Assembly: GCA_003223215.1 (NCBI GenBank)
Contig: QHYH01000084.1
Location: 186,001 to 250,000 of the forward strand
DNA: 64,000 bases
Reading direction: 5' to 3'
DNA from: Acidobacteriota bacterium
Lineage (GTDB): Bacteria > Acidobacteriota > Terriglobia > Acidiferrales > UBA7541
The notes beneath the pieces were generated by a model. The model was not told the origin of the DNA. It worked only from the letters and a program-made list of their open reading frames with translations, and made no database searches. Numbering within the stretch: the first letter of the stretch is position 1; each line of letters begins with the position of its first letter. The position numbers and the translations under genes are program-made. This document shows positions 44,546 to 58,425 of this stretch, in pieces.

Positions 44546-46915
44546 GTGCGCCTTCTTAGTCCGACTGAAAACAAGCGACTGAACGAATTGGTAGGCTTTT
44601 TATGTATTTCGCTGGCGGTTTTGATTGCGCTGGCGCTGATTTCCTATTCCCCGCGAGACGTTTCGTTTAACGTTAGCGCGCAGACGGCCGACAGCGGAGT
44701 GACCAACAACTGGATGGGCCCGGTCGGCGCGCATGCTTCGGACCTGCTCTTCCAGATTTTCGGCTTTGCCGGGTTTCTTCTGCCCATGGCGATCGCCGTG
44801 CTGGGCTGGCGATGGTGCCGCAGCCGGGCTATCGATTCGCAATCCGCCACCCTGGGCGGCTACTTCTTACTGCTGGTTTCCCTGCCATCGCTGCTGGCGC
44901 TGTTTCCCTTCCCCGCCGTGCGCGGTGCCATTCCCGCTGGCGGGACGGTTGGCTCGTTGATTTCGACCGAATTGCTCGCAGGGTTCAACTTCTGGGGAGC
45001 CCTCTTGGTCGCCGTGGCCCTTTTCTTCACGTCCTTGTTTATGACTACACGATTCTCCTTTGCCGGAACACATGCTTGGGCGACCGGGCCGAAAGGGCCG
45101 ATCGGCGCCGTCGAACGCCTAGGCCTTCTCAAGAGGGCCCAAACGCGCTGGCAGAACTGGCGCGAGCGCCGCGAGCAGGAGCGTATGCGCCGCCGAGTCG
45201 AAGAATCGCGCCTTTCCGGAAGAAAGCCTGTGCCGCCACAAGCGATCAACCGAACTGCCCTTCTCGAAACCGGTGGCGCCTTGGCCGATCAGTCGGAACC
45301 GGAAGCTGCTGACGAAGACAGCAAGTCCAGCGTCGCGAAAGCGCCGATTTTTGTTTTTCATCGCGATACGGAAAAACCAGCAGTCAAGAAAACCGGCGAG
45401 CCCAAGATTGCGAAGGGCAACCAGAGTTACAAACTTCCTCCTCCTTCTCTGCTGCACGAAGGCGAGCGCGGCGGGAAGCTCGACGAAGAGGAATTGAAGC
45501 AGCGCGCGCGTGCCATCGAAGCCAAGTGCCAGGAATTCGACGTCCAGGGACGCGTCACGCAGATCAACCCCGGCCCTGTCGTAACCACGTTCGAATTCAA
45601 GCCGGAAGCCGGCATCAAGTACAGCCGGATTATTAGCCTCACCGAAGATTTGTGCCTGGCCCTGCAAGCCGAATCCATCCTGATCGAGCGCATTCCCGGC
45701 AAGTCCACCATCGGCATCGAGGTCCCGAACGACAAGCGCCAGACGATCGCGCTGCGTGAAATCATCGAAGCCCCGGAGTTCATTCATTCCCCAAGCAAGC
45801 TGACCCTGGCCATGGGACGTGACCTGCACGGGCGGATTCGCGTGACGGAATTGGCCGCCATGCCGCACCTGCTCATTGCCGGTTCGACGGGTACCGGCAA
45901 GAGCGTGTTCATCAACTCGCTCATGCTGTCCATCCTGTTCAAGGCCAGCCCGGACGAAGTGAAAATGGTGCTTGTTGATCCCAAACGTTTGGAACTGAGT
46001 CTTTACGAGAACATTCCGCATTTGATAGCGCCGGTCGTCACGGATCCGAAAATAGCTTCGAACGTTTTACGGAACGCTACGCGCGAGATGGAGAACCGTC
46101 TAAAACTGCTGGCACAGCGCGGCGTTCGCAATATCGACCAGTACAACCGCACGTTCAAGAAAGAACAGTCGCTCTCGCTCTTCGACAATGTCGAAGAGTC
46201 GGAGCACAAGCCGCTTCCCTACCTCATCATCGTTATCGACGAATTGGCCGACTTGATGATGGTCGATACCAACAATGTGGAAGAATCCATCACCCGGCTG
46301 GCGCAGATGGCGCGCGCCGTAGGCATTCATTTGATTCTCGCGACGCAGCGGCCCTCGGTCGACGTCATCACCGGCTTAATCAAAGCGAACTTCCCCGCCC
46401 GTATCTCTTTCCGAGTGGCTAGCAAGGTCGACTCGCGCACCATTCTCGATTCGAACGGTGCAGAATCGTTGCTTGGCCGCGGCGACATGCTCTACTTGCC
46501 GGCAGGCTCGGCGCGATTGCACCGGATTCACGGCCCGCTGGTCACGGAAGACGAAATCACCGAAGTCTGCGATTTCTGGCGCGAGCAAGCGCAAGCAAAA
46601 TATCAAGAAGAGCTGCTCGAAGCACCCAAGGAGGAGAATGGCAAGGCCGCCGAAGGAGCAGGCGAACCCGATTCGGATGGCGGCGACGACGTCGACGACG
46701 ACTTGTATCAGGATGCCGTTCGCGTCGTTTGCGACGCCGGACGCGCTTCCACTTCCACGTTGCAGCGCCGCCTGCGGATCGGCTACGGCCGGGCCGCGCG
46801 CTTGATCGACCTCATGGAAAAAGATGGCATCGTCGGCCCCCCCGACGGCACCAAGCCGCGCGAGGTTTTGAAAAACCGCAACTGGATGAAAGAATTCGAT
46901 GCGTCGCAGCATTAG
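44546..46915 (+). CDS. ftsK: DNA translocase FtsK/SpoIIIE
   Basis: A septal DNA pump that clears and aligns chromosome ends at division. The 789-residue product has four N-terminal transmembrane helices (first: LVGFLCISLAVLIALALIS) and a charged linker of about 150 residues. The alpha/beta RecA-like motor follows with Walker A AGSTGTGKSVF (Lys452), Walker B YLIIVIDELADLMM, ILATQRPSVDVITGLIKAN and a C-terminal gamma winged helix (LYQDAVRVVCDAGRASTSTL, QRRLRIGYGRAARLID) that reads KOPS-like sequences. Start: GTG at 44546 with GAGGAG upstream. The 3' end overlaps the next gene by 17 bp. Confidence 0.96.
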   Translation: MRLLSPTENKRLNELVGFLCISLAVLIALALISYSPRDVSFNVSAQTADSGVTNNWMGPVGAHASDLLFQIFGFAGFLLPMAIAVLGWRWCRSRAIDSQSATLGGYFLLLVSLPSLLALFPFPAVRGAIPAGGTVGSLISTELLAGFNFWGALLVAVALFFTSLFMTTRFSFAGTHAWATGPKGPIGAVERLGLLKRAQTRWQNWRERREQERMRRRVEESRLSGRKPVPPQAINRTALLETGGALADQSEPEAADEDSKSSVAKAPIFVFHRDTEKPAVKKTGEPKIAKGNQSYKLPPPSLLHEGERGGKLDEEELKQRARAIEAKCQEFDVQGRVTQINPGPVVTTFEFKPEAGIKYSRIISLTEDLCLALQAESILIERIPGKSTIGIEVPNDKRQTIALREIIEAPEFIHSPSKLTLAMGRDLHGRIRVTELAAMPHLLIAGSTGTGKSVFINSLMLSILFKASPDEVKMVLVDPKRLELSLYENIPHLIAPVVTDPKIASNVLRNATREMENRLKLLAQRGVRNIDQYNRTFKKEQSLSLFDNVEESEHKPLPYLIIVIDELADLMMVDTNNVEESITRLAQMARAVGIHLILATQRPSVDVITGLIKANFPARISFRVASKVDSRTILDSNGAESLLGRGDMLYLPAGSARLHRIHGPLVTEDEITEVCDFWREQAQAKYQEELLEAPKEENGKAAEGAGEPDSDGGDDVDDDLYQDAVRVVCDAGRASTSTLQRRLRIGYGRAARLIDLMEKDGIVGPPDGTKPREVLKNRNWMKEFDASQH

Positions 46916-47492
46916 ATGGCACAAACGCGGCGCTGTGACATTTCTGGCGATCCTGATGCTGCCAGCTGCCATTTGTCGCGCTTCGCCGGCGATGACTGGG
47001 AAGTTTTGGGCCCAGTTTGCCGCCTCTTCTACGCCTCAAAATGGATTACCGGATGGCTACGATCCCCGTCGCGATCCGGAAAAAGACCTGGATGCTGCGC
47101 GCGGGGAGGCGAAAAAAGCCGGCAAAAACATTTTCGTCGAAGTAGGCGGCGAGTGGTGCACCTGGTGCCACATTCTCGACCGCTTCTTTCACGAACATCC
47201 CAATCTTGAGGCGCTTCGCGACAAAAATTACGTTCCCATGAAGGTGAGCATGAGCCAGGAGAATCCCAACCGCGCGTTTTTCTCTCGCTTCCCCTACATT
47301 CATGGGTATCCGCATATCTTCATTTTGGACGCCGAGGGGAAATTGATTCGCTCACAACCAACCAAAGTGCTCGAGGACGGCCAAAGTTACAACGCAAAGC
47401 GGTTTCAGAAATTGCTGGAGCAGTGCGCCCCGAAGCGGCAGCGCGTAGCGCGCGCTGTCCTGTCAAGCCATCTAAGAAAATACGCAATGTAA
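46899..47492 (+). CDS. Exported thioredoxin-like protein
   Basis: The product has 197 residues with a signal peptide (GAVTFLAILMLPAAICRASP). A thioredoxin-fold domain follows with the redox site GGEWCTWCHILDRFF (Cys87, Cys90) and the cis-Pro region IHGYPHIFILDAEGKLIRSQ. The CTWC dipeptide resembles the DsbD-gamma/thioredoxin-7 class rather than cytosolic thioredoxin. It overlaps the ftsK 3' end and is probably translationally coupled. Partner unknown. The island boundary (tRNA-Phe) follows 65 bp downstream. Confidence 0.85.
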   Translation: MRRSIRWHKRGAVTFLAILMLPAAICRASPAMTGKFWAQFAASSTPQNGLPDGYDPRRDPEKDLDAARGEAKKAGKNIFVEVGGEWCTWCHILDRFFHEHPNLEALRDKNYVPMKVSMSQENPNRAFFSRFPYIHGYPHIFILDAEGKLIRSQPTKVLEDGQSYNAKRFQKLLEQCAPKRQRVARAVLSSHLRKYAM

Positions 47493-47557: not shown

Positions 47558-47632
47558 GCCGGGGTAGCTCATTGGTAGAGCGCTGCCCTGAAAAGGCAGG
47601 CGTAGCCAGTTCGATTCTGGCCCCCGGCACCA
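47558..47632 (+). tRNA. tRNA-Phe (GAA)
   Basis: A 75-nt cloverleaf including encoded CCA. The acceptor GCCGGGG pairs with CCCCGGC. The D-arm is GCTC...GAGC and the anticodon stem is CTGCC/GGCAG around the loop CTGAAAA, giving anticodon GAA. The T-arm is GCCAG TTCGATT CTGGC. The discriminator is A followed by CCA. It is the left border of the accessory island. The antisense strand is read by the last part of the adjacent recombinase frame. Confidence 0.97.
47619..47632 (+). repeat. Attachment-site core at the tRNA-Phe 3' end (reference copy)
   Basis: The 14-nt sequence ggcccccggcacca forms the end of the tRNA T-arm, acceptor arm and CCA. The same sequence, whole or shortened, recurs at 49002-49012, 51087-51100, 57045-57056 and 58344-58357. 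tRNA 3' ends are classical integration sites, and the island begins immediately to the right. Confidence 0.75.
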
Positions 47633-47685
47633 TCGGAATGCGCCAACTCTTCTTCACCAAAGAAATCTACTTTGCCATGAGCAAG

Positions 47686-48739
47686 ATACGTTTTTTTTTC
47701 CGTTTTCGTTCGTTGCTTCTAGGGTCAGTTGGCCAACGCGCTCGGCAAGCGCCTCGTGCGCCTCCTGGATGTTTTCAGGGCGCGCCAATAGCTCCCGAAT
47801 TTTCGACAGTCGTGACACCGCAAATTCCCTCAACTCTTCGAGCTTTGCGCGCAACGATCCCGGTGCGGGCTCGAGAAGCTTGTCTGTGATGGCGCGCAAT
47901 TCTTTTTCCCGCTCTCCAATCGCGTTCATGATGCTCTGAGACTGCTGGCCTTGCGCTATCGAGTCCGTAAGGCGCTTGAGTTCCAAATCGAGTTCCTGTT
48001 TCCGCTGACGCATTCGCGCAAGCTCTGCGTCCAGCCCGGCATACTGCTCGCTCAGGGCTTCTTCCATCTTCGCGACGGCATAATCGACCACCTCAGTCTT
48101 GCGGACGGATTCAGACAAGCCTTTCAGCAAGCTCTCTTCGAGTTCATCCCGGCGAACGAGTAGCGAATTTGAGCAAACGGTGACCCCGCGTTGATGATGG
48201 AGCGAGCAGCCGTAGCGATCCGCACCATTGCGACCGCGCCCACTGACGAGAGTGATGCTACCGCCACACTCGGCGCACTTCAGCAAACCAGAAAACAGAT
48301 AACGCCTTGGGCCAACAATCAGTCCGGAACTCTCCTGGCCTGGCCTGCCAAGTGTCCGCTTGACCTTCTCAAATCTTCGCCCCGCTGCCGCAAACAGTTC
48401 ATCGGAGACGATCCGGAGATGAGGTGTGTCGAGCGTTGTCCATGATTCAGGGCGCGGCCTGTAGACTCGCTTGCTTGTGCCAGGTACGCGCAATTTGCGT
48501 TTTGTATTCCAGATCGTCTTGCCGACATATTTACGATTCAACAGGACATGACGGACAGAGGAAAGGCACCATGAGCGACTGAAGCGGCCCTTCTGTGGTT
48601 GCGGAGCCAAGACGCCTAGCCAGATTCAGCGCATAGCCGGAAGATGCGCTGTACAATTTCCGCTTGTTCCCTATTCACTTCCAGCTTCGCACTCCCGTCC
48701 CCGTTCTTGACTGACGTATAGCCGAAGCACCTGCCTCCC
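47686..48739. repeat. Direct repeat, recombinase fragment, left copy
   Basis: About 1.05 kb that matches 54629-55719 nearly base for base by eye, apart from a deletion near 48615 and scattered substitutions. The similarity starts at ATACGTTTT and ends at GCACCTGCCTCCC. The two copies lie in the same orientation and bracket the toxin-antitoxin and TOTE segment. Confidence 0.88.
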
Positions 48740-48971: not shown

Positions 48972-49012
48972 TGAAGCGGATGTCGCGATCCGTTCGTGCC
49001 GGGCCCCCGGCA
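48972..49012 (+). repeat. 41-bp repeat ending in a shortened attachment core
   Basis: This 41-bp block (TGAAGCGGATGTCGCGATCC... ending ggcccccggca) is identical to 58314-58354. Its last 11 bases are the tRNA-Phe-derived core without the terminal CCA. It indicates an old attachment site or a duplication of one. Confidence 0.75.
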
Positions 49013-49369: not shown

Positions 49370-49699
49370 GTGCACATTGTGACGCGCAAGCATCTGAGCG
49401 AGGCCATGCAGGAGTATCCAGATGCTGCGAATGAGATCAAGGCATGGGTCGTTATAGTCGAAGGCGTCCGATGGCACAATTTTGCTGAAGTTCGGCTCAT
49501 GTTTCGGGATGCCGATTACATCAACGGATATGTGGTATTTAACATCCGGCGAAACCGCTACCGGCTCATCACTGTTATTCACTTTGCGAAGACAACAGAT
49601 GAGAAGCGGACGGAAGGACACGTCTACATTCGGTCCTTCCTGACACACAAGGAGTACAACGATCCCCGGAAATGGGATCGGAGATTTGGTGCAAAATGA
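49370..49699 (+). CDS. higB: HigB-family mRNA interferase toxin
   Basis: The product is 109 residues with the HigB (RelE-superfamily) pattern: MHIVTRKHLSEAMQEYPDAA, VEGVRWHNFAEVRLMFRDAD, VVFNIRRNRYRLITVIHFAK and VYIRSFLTHKEYNDPRKWDR. The C-terminal His-x-x-Tyr and the basic IRRNRYRL strand are those of ribosome-dependent mRNA interferases. Start: GTG at 49370, given by the promoter spacing. Its stop overlaps the higA start (ATGA), so toxin and antitoxin are translationally coupled, toxin first. Confidence 0.92.
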   Translation: MHIVTRKHLSEAMQEYPDAANEIKAWVVIVEGVRWHNFAEVRLMFRDADYINGYVVFNIRRNRYRLITVIHFAKTTDEKRTEGHVYIRSFLTHKEYNDPRKWDRRFGAK

Positions 49700-50097
49700 A
49701 TACAGTTCTCGCAGACCCGGCGAAAATGATTGCGAAGGGTGCTCCCCACGTCATACACAATGACAAGGAACTGGAGGTGTATACAAACGCCCTCTTCCAA
49801 TTGACAGCTCTGGAGGACCCCTCTTCCGCAGAAGTGGAAGCAATCGAACTTCTGACCTTACTCGTGGAACGCTACGAACAAGCGCACTACGCAATTCCCG
49901 ACGCGGATGCAGTATCCGTCGTACGGTTTCTCATCGAACAGCAAGGCCTTACGCAACGTGATTTAACGCCGGAATTCGGATCGGAAAGTGCCGTTTCCAT
50001 GTTTCTTGCCGGGCAACGGAAGCTCACGATCGAGCAGGTTCGCAAATTAAGTTCACGATTCAAACTTCCTGCTGATGTCTTCATTCGAAGACGGTAG
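49696..50097 (+). CDS. higA: HigA-type antitoxin with XRE helix-turn-helix
   Basis: The product is 133 residues from the ATG at 49696. An N-terminal acidic toxin-binding half (ELEVYTNALFQLTALEDPSS) is followed by an XRE HTH (VVRFLIEQQGLTQRDLTPEF, AVSMFLAGQRKLTIEQVRKL) and a C-terminal FKLPADVFIRR. The layout is that of HigA proteins of the HigB/HigA (PF09907-linked) group. It is predicted to bind the dyad in the promoter. Its start is fixed by the 4-bp overlap with higB. Confidence 0.92.
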   Translation: MNTVLADPAKMIAKGAPHVIHNDKELEVYTNALFQLTALEDPSSAEVEAIELLTLLVERYEQAHYAIPDADAVSVVRFLIEQQGLTQRDLTPEFGSESAVSMFLAGQRKLTIEQVRKLSSRFKLPADVFIRRR

Positions 50098-50294: not shown

Positions 50295-50573
50295 GTGATC
50301 CGGTCGATCCGCCACAAAGGCCTCAAACGCCTTTACGAAGACGACGACCATCGCGGCGTTGTGAGCCAGCACGCCGACAGGCTCCGCGATATTCTCGTTC
50401 GCTTGGACGCGTCGGCTACCGTCGCCGACATGGATCTACCTGGTTTCCGGCTACATCCTCTCAAGGGTGAAATGAAAGGCTCTTGGGCGGTCACTGTCCG
50501 GGCTAACTGGCGAGTGATCTTTCGTTTCGCTGACGGCCATGCGTTCGACGTAGATTATCTCGACTATCATTGA
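50295..50573 (+). CDS. higB: RelE/HigB-type toxin (second module)
   Basis: The product is 92 residues: [60 protein letters not shown] and [20 protein letters not shown]. This is the classical HigB1/'killer protein' (PF05015) sequence with the conserved GxWxVxVxxxWRxxF pattern. The GTG start is set by the promoter. The antitoxin gene begins 55 bp downstream. Confidence 0.93.
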
Positions 50574-50628
50574 GGCATTGCCACGGAAGGATTGCCTTGG
50601 AAGTATTGCCGCTGAAGGAGAACCAACC

Positions 50629-50910
50629 ATGCCGATGAAGAATCCACCCCATCCAGGCGGCTTTGTCCTGCGCCAGTGTATCGAACCGCTAGGCTTGACC
50701 ATCACTCAAGCCGCCGCTGCCCTTGGTGTCACTCGCACCACTCTCTCCGAGCTCGTCAACGGAAAACGCGGCATCTCTCCTGAAATGGCCGTCCGCCTCT
50801 CCAAGGTTTTCGGCGGCAGCCCCGAATCCTGGCTCACCCAGCAGGCCCACTACGACCTTGCCCACCTCCGCACCACCCACATCAAACTCAAACGCCTTCA
50901 ATTCGCCTGA
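50629..50910 (+). CDS. higA: HigA-type antitoxin (second module)
   Basis: The product has 93 residues: [60 protein letters not shown] and [15 protein letters not shown]. This is the canonical HigA family (VapI-like) with the PPHPG motif and XRE helix-turn-helix. The start at 50629 is supported by AAGGAGAACC, a true ribosome-binding site, unlike the leaderless toxin gene upstream. It is predicted to neutralise HigB-2 and bind the palindrome at 50266-50283. Confidence 0.94.
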
Positions 50911-51040
50911 TCGTCCCCGTAAACGCACTCCTCCCAATCCTCAATCCCGGCTAGCCGCACGACTCTACACCCGCCCATGGCTAGGCGTCTGCCAAACGTC
51001 CCGAGATCCAGTCCAGACAGGTTCGCTTCAGACTCATGCC

Positions 51041-51080
51041 GCGGCCAACCACTCGAAACGAACCGGCAGACGTTCGGTCC
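51041..51080 (+). repeat. 40-bp repeat, copy 2
   Basis: Starts GCGGCCAACCACTCGAAACG and ends GGCAGACGTTCGGTCC, nearly identical to 56997-57036. It is followed after 6 bp by the attachment core at 51087. The end of the block (GGCAGACG...TTCG) resembles the GGCAGGCG...TTCGATTC of the tRNA-Phe 3' half, so it may be a decayed tRNA fragment. Confidence 0.7.
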
Positions 51081-51086
51081 ATGCCG

Positions 51087-51100
51087 GGCCCCCGGCACCA
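51087..51100 (+). repeat. Attachment core, copy with full 14-nt match to tRNA-Phe
   Basis: ggcccccggcacca is identical to the last 14 bases of tRNA-Phe. On its right, the minus strand encodes a recombinase-type C-terminus, exactly as at the tRNA itself. It is therefore read as a relic attachment site from an earlier integration. Confidence 0.75.
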
Positions 51101-51190
51101 GTGTAACAGCCACACTCCCGAGCAAATCCCACGTCCCTGACGCGATGTATATCCGGCCTTCCGGCGTGAGCAAAGATGAGGAATCGCGGT
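51101..51190 (-). pseudogene. Relic of a recombinase C-terminus
   Basis: The minus strand reads SSLLTPEGRIYIASGTWDLL then GSVAVTLVPG, with VPG coded by the tRNA-like core. It aligns with the terminal part of recombinase copy 1 (NGKTYLAHGKVDFFGEEELA): G-x-x-Y-x-A-x-G-x-x-D-x-x-G is shared. Only about 30 codons remain. The same relic is at 57057-57150. Confidence 0.55.
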
Positions 51191-51203
51191 GTATAGTCAC
51201 GTT

Positions 51204-51474
51204 ATGGCTAAGGATGTAATCCGCGTCTCAGAAGCGACTTCGCCTCGCTGATGGCCCGCGTGCGCTCTGGCACCGAGGTGGTCATCGAAGACAACTCGCG
51301 ACCTGTTGCCGTCGTTCGGCCGTTGCAGAACCTTACGCTCGTCTGCTCTCGGAATCCCTTCGTCTCTCGCGCGCGCATTGCTCAACCGTGACACTCGATG
51401 GAGACTTCGGGCGTGATCTCGAAGAGACCATCAACAGCCATCGCGAACCTCTCAGCCCGCCCGCATGGGACTGA
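51204..51474 (+). pseudogene. Phd/YefM-type antitoxin, copy A (frameshifted)
   Basis: The start MAKDVIRVSE, the middle LMARVRSGTEVVIEDNSRPV and the end LEETINSHREPLSPPAWD-like tail are in different frames. About a dozen bases are missing after GTCTCAGAAGCG and one more base near 51335. TATAGT at 51192-51197 sits 7 bp before the ATG. A second copy at 57160 carries different frame errors. Confidence 0.7.
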
Positions 51475-51612
51475 TCCTTGACTCCAGCGTGGTTATCGCC
51501 GCCGAACGCCGGGGAGATACTGTCGAAAGATTGATCGAGCGAGTCGTGAGTATGGCCGGGGACCAGGACGCGGCGCTCTCCGCCGTGGGCTTGACCGAAC
51601 TCGTCCACGGCC
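51465..51612 (+). pseudogene. VapC-type PIN toxin, copy A (3'-truncated)
   Basis: Starts MGLILDSSVVIAAERRGDTV with the catalytic Asp and continues to LSAVGLTELVHG, identical in layout to the intact copy at 57426. It then switches abruptly to unrelated sequence at about 51611. Two of the PIN acidic positions and the C-terminal half are lost. The break is the left joint of the TOTE-containing segment. Confidence 0.8.
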
Positions 51613-51684: not shown

Positions 51685-54519
51685 GTGGCTACACCTGTCA
51701 GTTTGCCTATTTTCGAACAAGGTGGCGTGAATCAGCGTTCGCCCGCCCAGGCCAAAGTTGCTCTCTTTCGCTCTCTCTTTCGTGGACGAGAGGATGTTTA
51801 TCCGCAACGATTCGAAAGCCGTAAGACAGGCAGAGCTGGCTATTCGCCGGCTTGCGGCAATGAGTGGGTCCGGGGAATCTGCGAGAAACCTAGAATCAAG
51901 TGCTCCGAATGTCCGCACCAGCACTTCCTTCCCGTTACCGACGACGTAATTCGTTGGCATCTGTGCGGCCAGGACGACAAGGGTCGGGAATTCGTCATGG
52001 GCGTCTATCCGATGCTTAGGGATGAGACCTGTTTCTTTCTGGCCGCCGATTTTGACAAAGCAACGTGGCAGCAAGATGCAGGCGCATTCTTGGAGACATG
52101 CCGCCAAATGAGCGTGCCCGCTGCCCTGGAACGGTCCCGGTCGGGCAACGGCGGGCACGTTTGGTTCTTTTTCAATGAAGCTGTTCCCGCCGCATTGGCG
52201 CGCAAGCTGGGTACACACATACTGACGAAAACCATGGAATGCCGCCCCGAAGTCGGTCTGGATTCGTACGATCGGCTCTTCCCGAGTCAAGACACACTAC
52301 CGGTGGGCGGCTTCGGCAACCTGATCGCGTTGCCTCTCCAAAAACGGTTCCGAGAATTAGGTAATAGCGTTTTCCTCGACGAGCGATTCGTTCCCCATTC
52401 CGACCAATGGAAGTTTTTATCCTTGATCCGCAGAATCAGGCGGCAAGAAGTTGAAGAGATAGTCCACCGTGCCGATATAAAGGGCCAAATAATTGGCGTA
52501 CGTCTGGCGCCTGAGAGTGAGGAAGATGAAGATACGCCGTGGAAGAAACCGTCACGGAGTCGGACAAAAGTTTCAATCATCGGCCCATTACCGGAGAGCT
52601 TGGAACTCATCCTCGGTAATCAAATATACGTTCCTAAAGATGTGTTGCCGCCTGCCCTCCGCAACCGGCTGATCCGGTTGGCGGCGTTTCAGAATCCCGA
52701 GTTTTACAGATTGCAGGGCCTGCGGCTTCCGACTTACGACAGGCCTCGAATTATTGCCTGTGCCGAGGATCACGCCAAGCACATAGGACTGCCGCGCGGT
52801 TGCCTTGATGAAGTCCGTCAAACTTTGTCGGATCTGAACATCAAGGCGCTGGTCCGGGACGAGCGCAACCCCGGCCTGCCGCTGAAAGCAACATTCCAAG
52901 GTGAGTTGCGCCCCGAGCAAACCGTTGCCGCGATTGCCATGCTCGCTCATGATACGGGCGTGTTGGCAGCCACCACCGCCTTCGGAAAGACCGTGGTGGC
53001 CGCGTGGCTGATTGCGCAACGGGGAGTAAATACACTCGTATTGGTGCATCGGCGGCAGTTGCAACTTCAATGGATTGAGCGCCTTTCCACCTTCCTCGGA
53101 ATACCGGCGCGCACTATTGGCCGGATCGGCGGCGGCCGCACAAAGGCGACCGGCTTGCTTGATGTGGCCGTGATGCAAAGCTTGGTCCGAAGCGGTCTCG
53201 TCGACGATCTCGTGAGCAATTATGGCCACCTGATTGTGGATGAGTGTCACCATCTCTCTGCCCAAAGCTTTGAGCAGGTTGCCCGCCAGGCTAGGGCGAA
53301 GTTTGTGACCGGGCTGTCTGCGACCGTCACCCGGAAGGATGGCCAGCATCCGATCATCTTCATGGAGTGTGGTGCCGTACGCTACCGGGACAATGTCCGG
53401 CATGCTGTTGCAACTCACCCCTTTGAGCATAAGGTAGTGGTTCGTGCGACGGGTTTTCGTCCACTACGACCAGCGGATCCTGATGTGCGGGTGCAATTCC
53501 ACACGCTCTATGAAGAACTAATTGCCGATGAGGCGCGCAATCAGCTTATCTGTCAGGATGTCATCCATGCCCTTCGAGAGGGGCGGTCGCCGCTGGTGTT
53601 GACCGAACGAAATGAGCATCTTGACTCCTTGACGAAGCAATTGACCTCTGAGGTGCCGCACCTGATTGTACTCAGAGGAGGGATGCGCAAAAGGGAGCTT
53701 GACGCTACTCAAGCTCGCTTGGCCGCGATTCCTACTGACGAGGCTCGGCTGCTCTTGGCAACCGGCCGCTATGTGGGGGAGGGTTTTGATGACGCTCGAC
53801 TTGACACCTTATTCCTGACGCTGCCCGTCTCGTGGCAAGGGACGATCACGCAGTACGTCGGCCGGTTGCACCGCCTCTTTCACAACAAGCGGGAGGTGCG
53901 CGTGTACGACTACGCGGATCTCAACGTGCCGATGCTGGCGCGAATGTTCGACCGTCGCTGTCGCCGCTACGAAGGTATCGGCTACACGATTCAGCTTCCG
54001 GGAAGCGCAGTGCCGGGCTGGCCCGCAGAAGTGCTCCTCCCCGTCGATCCTGACTGGAAAAGCCAATATGCCACCAGCGTGCGCCGTTTGGTGCGCGATG
54101 GCGTAGATTCCCCTTTGGCAATGCTATTTGTCCATGCTGCCGTAGTCCCGCCGTCAGATGCCGATAGGCCCGCTCGAGCGCGAAGTGCAACGGAGGCATT
54201 TCTCTTTCGCCGATTGGAAACACTAGCCGAGACGGCCGGGAGGTTTCGCTTGAATGCAGAGTTGCCGATTCCCTTCGATGGCTGGGGCCGCATGGAAGTC
54301 GACCTGCTTTGCGAGCCGTCGCACATCGCCATCGAGCTTGACGGCAGACAGCACCTGGGCGACGCTGAAGCCTTCCGGCGAGATCGTCGCAAGGATACAT
54401 TGCTGCAGGAGAACGGTTATCGGGTACTCCGCTTCCTCGCGGAAGACGTCGGCAAATGTCTAGATCAAGTCCTGGACGCTATCCTGCGAGCGTTAGCACA
54501 CCAAAACGTCAGAATCTGA
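51685..54519 (+). CDS. TOTE-type conflict protein: primase, SF2 helicase and DUF559-like nuclease
   Basis: A single 944-residue protein. Residues about 22-260 form an archaeo-eukaryotic primase domain: FRSLFRGREDVYPQRFESRK, Cys57/66/73/76 cluster (CSEC), metal motif AADFDKAT (Asp122, Asp124) and RSGNGGHVWFFF (His158). Residues 400-770 are an SF2 helicase: TTAFGKTVV (Lys435), VDECHH (519-524), GLSAT (543-547), QYVGRLHR (723-730). Residues 835-937 are a Vsr/DUF559-like PD-(D/E)xK nuclease: MEVDLLCEP and IAIELDGRQH (Asp873, Glu884, Asp886). Named motifs appear intact. The domain set matches the TOTE conflict systems proposed from comparative genomics. Target unknown; antiphage or anti-mobile-element function is inferred. 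Confidence 0.88.
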   Translation: MATPVSLPIFEQGGVNQRSPAQAKVALFRSLFRGREDVYPQRFESRKTGRAGYSPACGNEWVRGICEKPRIKCSECPHQHFLPVTDDVIRWHLCGQDDKGREFVMGVYPMLRDETCFFLAADFDKATWQQDAGAFLETCRQMSVPAALERSRSGNGGHVWFFFNEAVPAALARKLGTHILTKTMECRPEVGLDSYDRLFPSQDTLPVGGFGNLIALPLQKRFRELGNSVFLDERFVPHSDQWKFLSLIRRIRRQEVEEIVHRADIKGQIIGVRLAPESEEDEDTPWKKPSRSRTKVSIIGPLPESLELILGNQIYVPKDVLPPALRNRLIRLAAFQNPEFYRLQGLRLPTYDRPRIIACAEDHAKHIGLPRGCLDEVRQTLSDLNIKALVRDERNPGLPLKATFQGELRPEQTVAAIAMLAHDTGVLAATTAFGKTVVAAWLIAQRGVNTLVLVHRRQLQLQWIERLSTFLGIPARTIGRIGGGRTKATGLLDVAVMQSLVRSGLVDDLVSNYGHLIVDECHHLSAQSFEQVARQARAKFVTGLSATVTRKDGQHPIIFMECGAVRYRDNVRHAVATHPFEHKVVVRATGFRPLRPADPDVRVQFHTLYEELIADEARNQLICQDVIHALREGRSPLVLTERNEHLDSLTKQLTSEVPHLIVLRGGMRKRELDATQARLAAIPTDEARLLLATGRYVGEGFDDARLDTLFLTLPVSWQGTITQYVGRLHRLFHNKREVRVYDYADLNVPMLARMFDRRCRRYEGIGYTIQLPGSAVPGWPAEVLLPVDPDWKSQYATSVRRLVRDGVDSPLAMLFVHAAVVPPSDADRPARARSATEAFLFRRLETLAETAGRFRLNAELPIPFDGWGRMEVDLLCEPSHIAIELDGRQHLGDAEAFRRDRRKDTLLQENGYRVLRFLAEDVGKCLDQVLDAILRALAHQNVRI

Positions 54520-54562
54520 GCAGATGTCCAACTTTGTGTTGGGTATAGTCTGGCATAGCCTC

Positions 54563-55719
54563 TCAAACCAGTTTCGGTGCGCCTCCTGGGCGGGCGGTCT
54601 CGACGGTAATCCCGCTCATCTTGCCTGCATACGTTTTCCCCGTTTTCGTTCGTTGCTTCTAGGGTCAGTTGGCCAATGCGCTCGGCAAGCGCCTCATGCG
54701 CCTCCTGGATGTTTTCAGGGCGCGCGAGCAGCTCCCGAATCTTTGATAGTCGGGACACAGCAAATTCCCTCAACTCCTCCAGCTTTGCGCGCAACGATCC
54801 CGGTGTGGGTTCGAGAAGCTTGTCTGTGATGGCGCGCAATTCTTTTTCCCGCTCTCCAATCGCGTTCATGATGCTCTGAGACTGCTGGCCTTGCGCTATC
54901 GAATCCGTAAGGCGCTTGAGTTCCAAATCGAGTTCCTGTTTCCGCTGACGCATTCGCGCAAGCTCTGCGTCCAGCCCGGCATACTGCTCGCTCAGGGCTT
55001 CTTCCATCTTCGCGACGGCATAATCGACCACCTCAGTCTCGAGGACGGATTCAGACAAGCCTTTCAGCAAGCTCTCTTCGAGTTCATCCCGGCGAACGAG
55101 TAGCGAATTTGAGCAAACGGTGACCCCGCGTTGATGATGGAGCGAGCAGCCGTAGCGATCCGCACCATTGCGACCGCGCCCACTTACGAGAGTGATGCTA
55201 CCGCCACACTCGGCACACTTCAGCAAACCAGAGAACAGATAACGCCTTGGGCCGACAATAAGTCCGGAACTCTTCTGGCCTGGCCTGCCAAGTGTCCGCT
55301 TGACCTTCTCAAATCTTCGCCCCGCTGCCGCAAACAGTTCATCGGAGACGATCCGAAGATGAGGTGTGTCGAGCGTTGTCCATTCTGATTCAGGGCGCCG
55401 CCTGTAGACTCGCTTGCTTGTGCCAGGTACGCGCAATTTGCGTTTTGTATTCCAGATCGTCTTGCCGACATATTTACGATTCAACAGGACATGACGGACA
55501 GAGGAAAGGCACCATGAGCGACTGAAGCGGCCCTTCTGCGGTTGCGGAGCCAAGACGCCTTCGCTGTTCAATGTGTGAGCAATGCGCTTGAGCGAATAGC
55601 CGGATTCAGCGCACAACCGGAAGATGCGCTGTACAATTTCCGCTTGTTCTTTATTCACTTCCAGCTTCGCACTCCCGTCCCCGTTCTTGACTGACGTATA
55701 GCCGAAGCACCTGCCTCCC
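54563..55719 (-). pseudogene. Large serine recombinase, copy 2 (N-terminally truncated)
   Basis: It contains the recombinase domain (GGRCFGYTSV, GYSLKRIAHTLNSEGVLAPQ, RKYVGKTIWNTKRKLRVPG), the zinc ribbon (CAECGG) and the long coiled coil (ELARMRQRKQELDLELKRLT). The resolvase domain with the catalytic Ser is absent; before GGRCFGY the frame (open to 55784) is unrelated sequence. Near the 3' end GGGGAAAACG puts the main frame into CRQDERDYR. One base less would give KTYAGKMSGITVETARPGGA and a stop at 54563-54565. It is convergent with the TOTE gene, 43 bp between stops. Confidence 0.85.
54629..55719. repeat. Direct repeat, recombinase fragment, right copy
   Basis: The partner of 47686-48739, about 1.09 kb. 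It is the more complete copy because it retains the segment deleted from the left copy. Sequence beyond both ends differs between copies, so the repeat boundaries are sharp. Confidence 0.88.
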
Positions 55720-55825
55720 ACTGAGGATCCCCACCTAACCTGCTTACAGCGTGCGCTTGCACGCGAGAAATCTTGCGGGAACAAAACTCGCCTGGCGTAT
55801 GTCTAATACAACAAAGGAGCTTTAG

Positions 55826-56917: not shown

Positions 56918-56996
56918 TTTGCAACGGGAACCTGCACCACTCTGTTAAGCAATTGAAGGGCTTTGCGTGCAACTCTCTCGGAGTGCTCTCATGCCC

Positions 56997-57036
56997 GCAG
57001 CCAACCACTCAAAGCGAACGGGCAGACGTTCGGTCC
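56997..57036 (+). repeat. 40-bp repeat, copy 3
   Basis: GCAGCCAACCACTCAAAGCG...GGCAGACGTTCGGTCC differs from 51041-51080 at only a few positions. Eight bases later comes the shortened attachment core at 57045. Confidence 0.7.
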
Positions 57037-57044
57037 ACTTCCCT

Positions 57045-57056
57045 CCCCCGGCACCA
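57045..57056 (+). repeat. Attachment core, 12-nt copy
   Basis: cccccggcacca matches the last 12 bases of tRNA-Phe. It is preceded by TTCCCT instead of CGGG, and followed on the minus strand by the same recombinase C-terminal relic as at 51101. Confidence 0.7.
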
Positions 57057-57150
57057 TTGTAACAGCCACACTCCCGAGCAAATCCCACGTCCCTGATGCG
57101 ATGTATATCCGGCCTTCTGGCGTGAGCAAAGATGAGGAATCGCGGTGTAT
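57057..57150 (-). pseudogene. Relic of a recombinase C-terminus, second copy
   Basis: The minus strand reads IIHRDSSSLLTPEGRIYIAS, then GTWDLLGSVAVTMVPG, where MVPG is coded by the tRNA-like core. It is nearly identical to 51101-51190. Because it overlaps the antitoxin promoter, the toxin-antitoxin unit begins directly at the end of the recombinase relic. Confidence 0.55.
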
Positions 57151-57153
57151 AAT
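57148..57153 (+). promoter_or_regulatory. -10 box of the Phd/VapC module, copy B
   Basis: A perfect TATAAT at 57148-57153 is followed six bases later by the ATG at 57160, so the transcript is predicted to be leaderless. The -35 region is weak. In copy A the same box reads TATAGT at 51192-51197 with the same distance to the ATG. Confidence 0.65.
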
Positions 57154-57159
57154 CACGTT

Positions 57160-57435
57160 ATGGCTAAGGATGTAATCCGCGTCTCGGAAAGCGGAAGCGG
57201 TGAGCGACTTCGCCTCGCTGATGGCCCGCGTGCGCTCTGGCACCGAGGTGGTCATCGAAGACAACTCGCGACCTGTTGCCGTCGTTCGGAACCTCACGCT
57301 CGTCTGCTCTCGGAATCCCTTCGTCTCGCGCGCGAGCATGGCTCAACCGTCACGCTCGATGGAGACTTCGGGCGTGATCTCGAAGAGATCATCAACAGCC
57401 ATCGCGAACCGCTCAGCCCGCCCGCATGGGACTGA
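57160..57435 (+). pseudogene. Phd/YefM-type antitoxin, copy B (two frame changes)
   Basis: MAKDVIRVSES is followed by an extra A (GAAAGCGG), which moves the DNA-binding part (SDFASLMARVRSGTEVVIED, NSRPVAVVR) into another frame. A second change near 57290 returns to the first frame for PHARLLSESLRLAREHGSTV and EEIINSHREPLSPPAWD. The continuous frame reads a wrong middle (ERLRLADGPRALWHRGG). The ancestral antitoxin had about 90 residues. Its stop overlaps the VapC start. Confidence 0.72.
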
Positions 57436-57839
57436 TCCTTGACTCCAGGGTGGTTATCGCCGCCGAACGCCGGGGAGATACTGTCGAACGACTGATCGAG
57501 CGAGTCGTGAGTCTGGCCGGGGACCAGGACGCGGCGCTCTCCGCCGTGGGCTTGACCGAACTCGTCCACGGCCTCTATCGAGCGCAAGCACCAGAAATGC
57601 GTGTTCGCCGCGAATCCTTCCTGCACGAACTCCTGGCGGACTTAACGGTGTACCCGTACACGAAAGAGACCGCGATGCTGGCAGGCAGGATCGACGGGGA
57701 GCAGCAGAGTCAGGGCGTGGTGATCCCGTTCGGAGACTTGCTCATCGGCGCGACGGCGTTGTCACTCGGCTTTTCGGTGCTGACTGCGAATCTCGGTCAT
57801 TTTCAGAAAATCCCTGGTCTCGCGGTCATGCAACTCTAG
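57426..57839 (+). CDS. vapC: VapC-type PIN-domain ribonuclease toxin
   Basis: The 137-residue product has the PIN layout: MGLILDSRVVIAAERRGDTV (Asp6), AALSAVGLTELVHGLYRAQA (Glu of the second motif), VIPFGDLLIGATALSLGFSV (third acidic residue) and LTANLGHFQKIPGL. In copy A the first motif is DSSVV; here Ser is Arg (DSRVV). It appears full length and potentially active, while the antitoxin frame upstream is disrupted. The start overlaps the antitoxin stop by 10 bp. Confidence 0.9.
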   Translation: MGLILDSRVVIAAERRGDTVERLIERVVSLAGDQDAALSAVGLTELVHGLYRAQAPEMRVRRESFLHELLADLTVYPYTKETAMLAGRIDGEQQSQGVVIPFGDLLIGATALSLGFSVLTANLGHFQKIPGLAVMQL

Positions 57840-58425
57840 CGGGCAGAACAACGGGTTCTCGCCTCGTCCGCAATCGTTATCACGGCGGGAAGCAGCGCGC
57901 TAAATTCCAAATTGTTCGTGTTTTTGTGCAGCGTCGAAAAAATCGTGACCTGCAGAAGCCGAGACTCCTCCACTGCCATCGCTACCGTGTAGCCTTGTTT
58001 ACGCCGCAAATCCCAAAAATCGGACCAGGTGTCCATCTTGTGAGGCTTTGCGATACAGGGGTGATCCGCAGTGTAGCCAGTGCGGCGGCCCGGGTGGTTT
58101 GTTCGTCCGCAAGAGAAAACCATGAATCGAGCGCACTTCCCTGTGAATGCCAGCGTCACCGACACGGGCAGAAATGTGTGGCATTCTGTGTTCGATGCTT
58201 CCGTACGCGCCGACTCAACGAAAGTTGGCCGGCCATGCTCTTTCGGTGAAGGCTTGTGCAGTGCAAGCGTACATCTCATAGCACACGAAGGATTTATGCC
58301 GCGACCTTGATGGTGAAGCGGATGTCGCGATCCGTTCGTGCCGGGCCCCCGGCACCATACGTCCAAGCTCAACCTGGCGCGGATCGCCGTCCCGCTAGGA
58401 GCGTTCGGCCAAGAACGTCCTTCTG
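57840..58425. other. No supported gene; contains an attachment-site repeat
   Basis: Long frames exist on both strands (for example 57836-58372 minus) but none shows a recognisable domain, proper start or coding character. The interval holds the 41-bp repeat and attachment core at 58314-58357. The sequence between 57890 and 58300 is unidentified. Confidence 0.4.
58314..58357 (+). repeat. 41-bp repeat plus full attachment core
   Basis: The first 41 bases are identical to 48972-49012. The block ends with the complete 14-nt core (58344-58357), identical to the tRNA-Phe 3' end. It is the rightmost core found, and is a candidate right border of the island or of its latest element. Confidence 0.75.

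Follow-up and report, generated by a model that had tools for sequence, protein, structure and literature searches.

In the integration-dependent immunity of mycobacteriophage BPs and its relatives (Broussard 2013, as described in PMC9262239 and PMC8092301), the attB site lies in a tRNA gene and the attP site inside the repressor gene. In the portions of these two accounts drawn on here, the reaction is attributed to a tyrosine integrase, the free form is given an ssrA-like end in -AA, and the prophage product is truncated by a stop codon at attL; in the same part of PMC8092301, XXXAA C-termini of the mycobacteriophage Int and Rep proteins were taken as ssrA-like tags. The archaeal suicidal integrases of SSV type are tyrosine recombinases that are cut in two and, in the excerpted text of PMC8371274, are stated to be exclusive to archaea. 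With regard to serine enzymes, the large serine integrases of M. abscessus prophages are reported, in the section of PMC8092301 used here, to have protein-gene targets and cores of 5-8 bp. Paracoccus phage vB_PamS_Pami6 (phiPam-6) carries a serine recombinase predicted to use tRNA-Met, and the sites of most Paracoccus serine-recombinase prophages are given as 'not identified' in the corresponding part of that paper (PMC6536676). In the open-licence literature searched, no account was found of a serine recombinase whose C-terminus is exchanged through att-encoded sequence; coming from open-licence papers only, this absence is weak.

Here, a family of large serine recombinases (LSRs) of soil bacteria and phages is described whose attP site, as read from sequence comparison, forms part of the recombinase gene itself, and in which integration exchanges the last ~13-20 or more codons; that this C-terminal exchange occurs is close to certain. 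The family resembles integration-dependent immunity in that attB lies in a tRNA gene (tRNA-Phe, -Met, -Ala, or -Gln), attP lies in a coding gene, the C-terminus is altered, and an -AA end of the free form is lost on integration (18/20 arms in Acidobacteriota; 10/19 free vs 0/64 integrated tails in viral contigs). However, attP is located here in a serine recombinase gene, not in a repressor gene used with a tyrosine integrase, and antisense tRNA codons take the place of the tail, whereas the mycobacteriophage product is cut short at attL. Because the attP gene is the recombinase and the enzyme is of the serine type, the family is not a member of integration-dependent immunity. With the SSV-type suicidal integrases it shares an attachment site within the integrase gene, a tRNA target, and an integrase altered by integration, whereas these bacterial and phage serine recombinases, unlike the split Int(N)/Int(C), stay whole and change only in their last ~13-20 or more residues. 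Like the large serine integrases of phiC31, Bxb1, TP901-1, and SPbeta, they have Resolvase, Recombinase, and zinc-ribbon domains and a short shared core. A serine recombinase on tRNA-Met, as in phiPam-6, is also seen in the viral-contig branch and in Azospirillum, whereas neither overlap nor tail exchange is reported in the portion of the phiPam-6 account drawn on here (PMC6536676).

The window, i.e., the whole 64-kb stretch of DNA that was analysed, covers positions 186001-250000 of its contig and comes from an 8.8-Mb genome whose close relatives are Acidobacteria group 2 genomes, and it contains a single tRNA gene, for tRNA-Phe (Table 1). A preliminary description had read one minus-strand frame of a recombinase through this gene to a stop at 47569-47571, and the reading is sound: the minus strand from 47736 to 47569 encodes ..KKTYLAHGKVDFFGEEELAHSDGAGGQNRTGYACLFRAALYQ and closes with TGA at 47569-47571. 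Given the placement of the tRNA-Phe gene on the plus strand, it follows that the part from GAGGQNR onward is antisense tRNA-Phe, as had been proposed. The one-base phase break placed at the A9 run was recovered as well; the open reading frame proper of copy 1 (318 aa) ends in LEATNENGKKNVSCSWQSRFLW and a stop at 47654, and relatives are in frame. The relatives L013 and L040 have the unbroken reading TYLAHGKVDFFGDEAMART joined to GGAGGQNRTGYARLFRAALYQ and a stop, and in a close remnant from G025, GTYLAHGKVDFFGEEGLAHS is followed in frame by GGAGGQNRT. At the level of sequence, these relatives confirm that the correct frame of copy 1 is the one entering the tRNA.

The A9 shift is not the sole defect of copy 1, because a TAG codon and frame changes toward the N-terminus mark it as a pseudogene in further ways. 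By eye, the tail of copy 2, PPRRRTETGLRGYARLYPTQ, resembles a tRNA, but it contains no core and overlaps with the end of the adjacent primase-helicase gene. An intact catalytic N-terminal domain is absent from both window copies, being broken in copy 1 and lost from copy 2, which starts after the resolvase domain; these copies are dead remnants.

Table 1. Attachment-site and recombinase features of the 64-kb window
Feature	Position	Strand	Support or comparison
tRNA-Phe(GAA), target of attachment; the tail of the integrated form is read from its antisense strand	47558..47632	+	ARAGORN, Rfam RF00005
Antisense-tRNA tail GAGGQNRTGYACLFRAALYQ plus stop of recombinase copy 1, integrated form	47569..47631	-	
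Attachment core TGGTGCCGGGGGCC, shared by the tRNA (attB/attL) and the ends of elements	47619..47632	-	
attP arm carried by the element, on the side of the recombinase; encodes ..YLAHGKVDFFGEEELAHSD in the frame of the relatives	47633..47690	-	
Recombinase copy 1, C-terminal part; PF07508 (partial) and PF13408; N-terminal part broken	47654..48610	-	
A9 run; frame of copy 1 shifted by one base against the tail	47691..47699	-	Relatives in frame
Degenerate core with decayed P' arm (..IRFSEGSPGE plus stop)	49002..49012	-	
P' arm (second attP arm) of an element; encodes GAGGPAWTERLPVRFEWLAAA plus stop	51034..51099	-	8 synonymous : 1 non-synonymous vs L117
Second attachment core; attP-type junction inside the array	51087..51100	-	
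Remnant tail of a frame-2-lineage recombinase (..LTPEGRIYIASGTWDLLGSVAVT, then LVPGAR), abutting the core	51101..51233	-	Compare L020/L045
Recombinase copy 2; PF07508 and PF13408, resolvase domain missing; tail diverged, without core	54465..55784	-	
Frame-2 recombinase tail, second copy, decayed (..LTPEGRIYIASGTWDLLGSVAVTMVPGE)	56989..57339	-	
Second attP arm (P'), coding GAGGPARTDRDIRFTIKVAA plus stop	58294..58356	-	
Third exact core, at the outermost of the window junctions found	58344..58357	-	

The window is a decayed array of such elements. At least three of them follow the tRNA-Phe gene between 47558 and 58357, with cores at 47619, 49002, 51087, and 58344, and the tRNA-Phe site is an integration hot spot that is occupied in many congeneric genomes. 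A segment comprising a recombinase tail, an antitoxin-like segment, and a PIN-toxin gene is duplicated ~6 kb apart with 92-100% identity (51039-51612 and 56995-57573). Two adjacent HigB-type toxin/HTH antitoxin pairs occupy 49370-50097 and 50295-50910, and 51685-54519 encodes a protein of 944 aa that combines a TOTE-type archaeo-eukaryotic primase with helicase and DUF559 nuclease-like domains, a probable defence or conflict system carried by the array. Elements at tRNA-Phe in other genomes also have cargo of their own, such as a candidate defence system PDC-M60 (A and C components) in G031 (L046:6483-11598) and, in G014 (L115:7496-9857), a tyrosine integrase and a Clp-protease-like protein, the latter curious beside the putative Clp degron discussed below. 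Directly upstream of the tRNA-Phe gene, FtsK and a thioredoxin-like gene are located at 44546-47492; an FtsK-like reading in the same place in another genus (L055) suggests conserved synteny.

Relatives were searched in 101 related genomes first and then in 399 genomes of the wider class; a single scan of genome contigs gave 3 loci only. In the 101 genomes, antisense tRNA-Phe was found directly at the recombinase 3' end in 13 loci, which bears out the earlier proposal that the lineage targets the 3' end of tRNA-Phe. Most of the 13 have no stop codon of their own, and the conserved G-x-[IVW]-D-[FWL]-[FL]-G region runs straight into the tRNA. The integrated tail is GAGGQNRTGYARLFRAALYQ plus stop in the frame 1 sublineage (G001, G020, G024, G027, G030, G031, and G064) and VPGARIELATPAFSGRRSTNELPRH with a continuation to a stop in the frame 2 sublineage (G003, G014, and G017). 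In the wider class, the recombinase likewise enters tRNA-Phe without a previous stop in G136 and, in frame 2, in G286 and G257; it enters tRNA-Met with the tail VAGAGFEPATFGL plus stop in G342, G276, G268, and G203, runs into tRNA-Ala in G264, through tRNA-Phe and beyond in G140, and through tRNA-Gln in G336. At all 20 loci without a disabling junction mutation (tRNA-Phe, -Met, -Ala, and -Gln), there is no LSR stop codon before the tRNA, the exceptions being mutated copies (the window, G012, G032, and G091). Intact relatives that end before the tRNA with another conserved tail, named in the preliminary description as the contrary case, were sought, and none was found among the tRNA-linked copies; in one copy, G112, the frame closes 5 nt from a truncated tRNA-Met without reaching it.

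The phenomenon turned out not to be limited to Acidobacteriota or to tRNA-Phe, given the other tRNA targets, Azospirillum, and the viral contigs described below. In the plasmid relative from Azospirillum sp. B510, the LSR ends in LVAGAGFEPAAFRL plus stop inside antisense tRNA-Met; the other two of three plasmid relatives, from Paracoccus sp. TOH and Thalassospira, have no adjoining tRNA. No second core was found at the far ends of the Acidobacteriota tRNA-Met elements within the 2-20 kb examined. Full-length relatives of 548-616 aa contain Resolvase, PF07508 Recombinase, and PF13408 zinc-ribbon domains and a coiled coil, and match TP901-1 Int and SPbeta YokA in the PDB. As in LSRs, attP and attB share a short identical core, here the 14 bp TGGTGCCGGGGGCC, and their arms differ on both sides.

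This core corresponds to the last 14 bases of tRNA-Phe and recurs without a tRNA inside arrays and at far element ends, with 48 exact matches in 36 congeneric genomes vs 3 for a reversed control pattern. It lies within the recombinase reading frame in both integrated and attP-type forms. In G014, a 15.5-kb element is bounded by attL and attR; its far core is taken as attR because the host DNA after it is homologous to DNA downstream of tRNA-Phe in G022 and G019. The bounds of this element suggest that these LSRs recombine attP with attB. An immediate, base-by-base empty attB/attR junction was not found in host DNA, the nearest homology lying hundreds of bases to 1-4 kb off.

The far side of the core, termed the P' arm, is the sequence that follows the recombinase in the circular form. 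In frame 1, P' arms encode GAGGPVRTVRPYSFSLSLAA, GAGGPVRTVRPCSFSLSLAA, GAGGPVCTIRATEFSLPVAA (with four variants), GAGGQNRSLQPQIEFRVQVAA, and GAGGGSSIARRVEFEVSLPA, and in frame 2 VPGASIARYSHASRLCIPFEIPLAA, VPGARLGCNSRLVIPAIPYKIEVAA, VPGATIEHNNLCIDFRFDLAA, VPGARIAPCRHTVHHIAFRLDIAA, and VPGARPVHSSLRSEFLIELAA (the last at L188), each followed by a stop codon; the window arms GAGGPAWTERLPVRFEWLAAA (at 51100) and GAGGPARTDRDIRFTIKVAA (at 58357) differ by one residue each from L117 and L123, respectively. At 17 of 19 tallied non-tRNA cores, the arm ends in [LVIA][AP]A plus stop in one of the two recombinase frames, against a null expectation of 0.0079 per arm. With L188 added, 18 of 20 arms, in 11 arm families grouped by eye, end in -[LVI][AP]A or -AAA plus stop, in a sample where several arms are related or come from array junctions instead of cognate circles. 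The pattern is missing at L120 and L125, the former probably a partial tRNA and the latter probably a chance match. In the cognate pairs with both element ends on one contig (G031, G003, and G014), the frame of the arm is that of the recombinase in 3/3 cases.

Related P' arms differ from each other at synonymous and non-synonymous positions in ratios of 8:1, 7:1, and ~9:7 in frame, and the ratios are reversed in other frames. Their ends vary by synonymous codons and stops (GCC GCG GCA TGA / GCG GCT GCG TGA; GCA TGA / GCG TAA), the distance from core to stop differs between sublineages, and the bases right after the core are often CGG. That arm differences are mainly synonymous indicates translation of the P' arm and selection on it as protein, and hence expression of the gene with a P' tail while the element is free; selection on the -AA end at the protein level is considered highly probable. 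The circular form ends in ..GAGGPVRTVRPYSFSLSLAA or VPGARLGCNSRLVIPAIPYKIEVAA and the integrated form in ..GAGGQNRTGYARLFRAALYQ or VPGARIELATPAFSGRRSTNELPRH and its continuation. Of the preliminary proposal that the tRNA supplies the last ~20 codons, it stands that integrated copies end in antisense tRNA; no missing end is supplied, however, since before integration the second attP arm already provides a tail, which ends in -[LV]AA plus stop, so that integration replaces one C-terminus by another.

In addition, hybrid junctions, in which the recombinase arm and the P' arm come from different elements, were observed at L046:2591, L047:1579, L122:2907, and L188:4602. Three of these four are in the wrong frame (e.g., GAGGQHSTIQPRL plus stop), as expected from successive integrations at one site.

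A sister branch was found in viral contigs and phages, where 110 IMG/VR relatives fall into two main classes, counted as distinct tails. The 64 distinct integrated-type tails, mostly VA[EGKR]xG[FL]EP[PT]TxxL plus stop in antisense tRNA-Met, include none with an -AA end, whereas 10 of the 19 distinct tails internal to viral contigs and without a tRNA end in -AA (Fisher p=4e-8). The baseline for -AA is 5.1% of other reading frames of >=150 aa on the same contigs (binomial p = 7e-9). The free form ends in ..GGRVVAGERFEQSPQIILGRFVA (also read as ..EMLGGRVVAGERFEQSPQIILGRFVA) in Rhizobium phage RR1-A and in ..GGRVVAEVRSNPSPPFRFGVIAA in Microcystis phage Mae-JY30, while integrated relatives end in ..GGRVVAEEGFEPPTQGL (also read as ..EMLGGRVVAEEGFEPPTQGL). 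The branch is less uniform than the Acidobacteriota arms, and the tag is not universal, because only 10 of 19 free tails of the tRNA-Met branch have -AA and 5 of 19 lack a recognisable tRNA-Met core. Since the residues preceding the final -AA are unrelated between the branches, sequence comparison favours a C-terminal tag rather than a fold.

The following mechanism is proposed. The attP site lies inside the 3' end of the LSR gene and comprises the recombinase-side arm (the end of the folded protein), the 14-bp core, and the P' arm, which encodes a further ~15-20 residues and a stop codon. Crossover with tRNA-Phe would leave the tRNA whole; that P' gives way to antisense tRNA is shown by sequence, and with free forms often ending in -AA and integrated tails in 0/64 cases, integration swaps an ssrA-like -AA tail for the antisense tRNA. 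The -[LV]AA end would be an ssrA-type signal for ClpXP-like proteases, and in an element that has just entered or just been excised the recombinase would be short-lived, limiting integration and re-integration. Integration would then remove the degron signal and change the stability or activity of the recombinase in the resident element. This reading, an exchange plus a degron-type role, is given a probability of roughly 0.7. By analogy with ssrA-like tags, it is rather probable that the -AA end acts as a degron, while the direction of the physiological effect is tentative; an enzyme that is short-lived in the free element and differently stable after integration is the best-supported guess, and the tail swap may be a built-in on/off control. 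Transcription of the integrated gene into the tRNA and translation of either tail would be required. In AlphaFold2 models, both tails follow the last beta-hairpin with pLDDT <50, and the attP tail has no secondary structure, in a shallow alignment with few rows sharing that tail; such predicted disorder suits a tag. The F-x-[IVL]-x-[LVI] pattern that is conserved ahead of -AA in Acidobacteriota exceeds the requirements of a ClpX tag and might form a beta-strand.

Several other explanations have been weighed. An open antisense frame was rejected as evidence in itself, because all three antisense frames of the window tRNA-Phe are open and ~20 open codons are not rare. What exceeds chance, judging from the sequences compared, is that the reading recurs in 20 junction-intact relatives, that two sublineages enter the tRNA in different frames, and that the second attP arm has a coding signal. 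As the window copy is broken and shifted at the A9 homopolymer, its antisense reading could be put down to chance combined with sequencing error; with the reading intact in 20 relatives, this is refuted for the family and next to nothing is left of its probability. Scarcely more credible is the version of the preliminary description, in which an element without a proper end obtains its last codons from the tRNA: the integrated copies indeed terminate within the tRNA, but the P' arms give the free form an end, free phage genomes have full reading frames, and the attP-type junctions contradict it. The attP arms of LSRs are bound by the LSR protein. The P' arm might on this ground be kept as DNA, with the -AA reading as a by-product, and CGG often comes first after the core; yet the differences fall at synonymous positions and involve different stop codons, the distance from core to stop varies, and the -AA frame follows the sublineage, which makes a role as binding site alone very improbable.

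More weight, although still that of an unlikely explanation, is due to a passive overlap, in which attP sits beside the LSR gene end for compactness, gene and site forming one module, with harmless read-through and functionless tails. Read-through would be free of cost because all three antisense tRNA-Phe frames are open; two of them are used, and both tails are predicted to be disordered. On the other hand, the -[LV]AA end of the P' arms is under protein-level purifying selection, occurs far above chance, and is repeated in the sister branch. The tail could also serve as a directionality switch, the attP-encoded form favouring attP x attB and the tRNA-encoded form locking the product or permitting attL x attR. 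Integration is precisely the step at which the tail changes, the tail comes after the C-terminal region close to the coiled coil and beta-hairpin, and the mycobacteriophage integration-dependent systems are described in the part of PMC9262239 used here as lacking an obvious RDF. Such a switch is nevertheless quite unlikely, as what is conserved is the -AA at the very C-terminus, while the other residues vary, as in a protease tag, and the tails are predicted to be disordered.

A C-terminal tail exchange by antisense tRNA in a serine recombinase extends beyond the reading of the preliminary description and is larger than what was stated there. It predicts that C-termini in databases are 'wrong' for either the free or the integrated forms. 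With regard to tool building, an LSR taken from an integrated locus would carry an antisense-tRNA tail and one from a free element an -AA tail, and their stability may differ. If the reading with exchange and degron is true, these enzymes would be a bacterial serine-recombinase counterpart of integration-dependent immunity and of the suicidal integrases, occurring in Acidobacteriota, an Azospirillum replicon, and many viral contigs. The chances are about even that they represent a widespread class of bacterial and phage LSRs with a built-in post-integration switch, in which a degron is replaced by antisense-tRNA codons and the stability or activity of the enzyme reports the integration state without a repressor or RDF. 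The exchange would also suggest a concrete way in which serine integrases that target tRNA genes might restrict integration or undo it.
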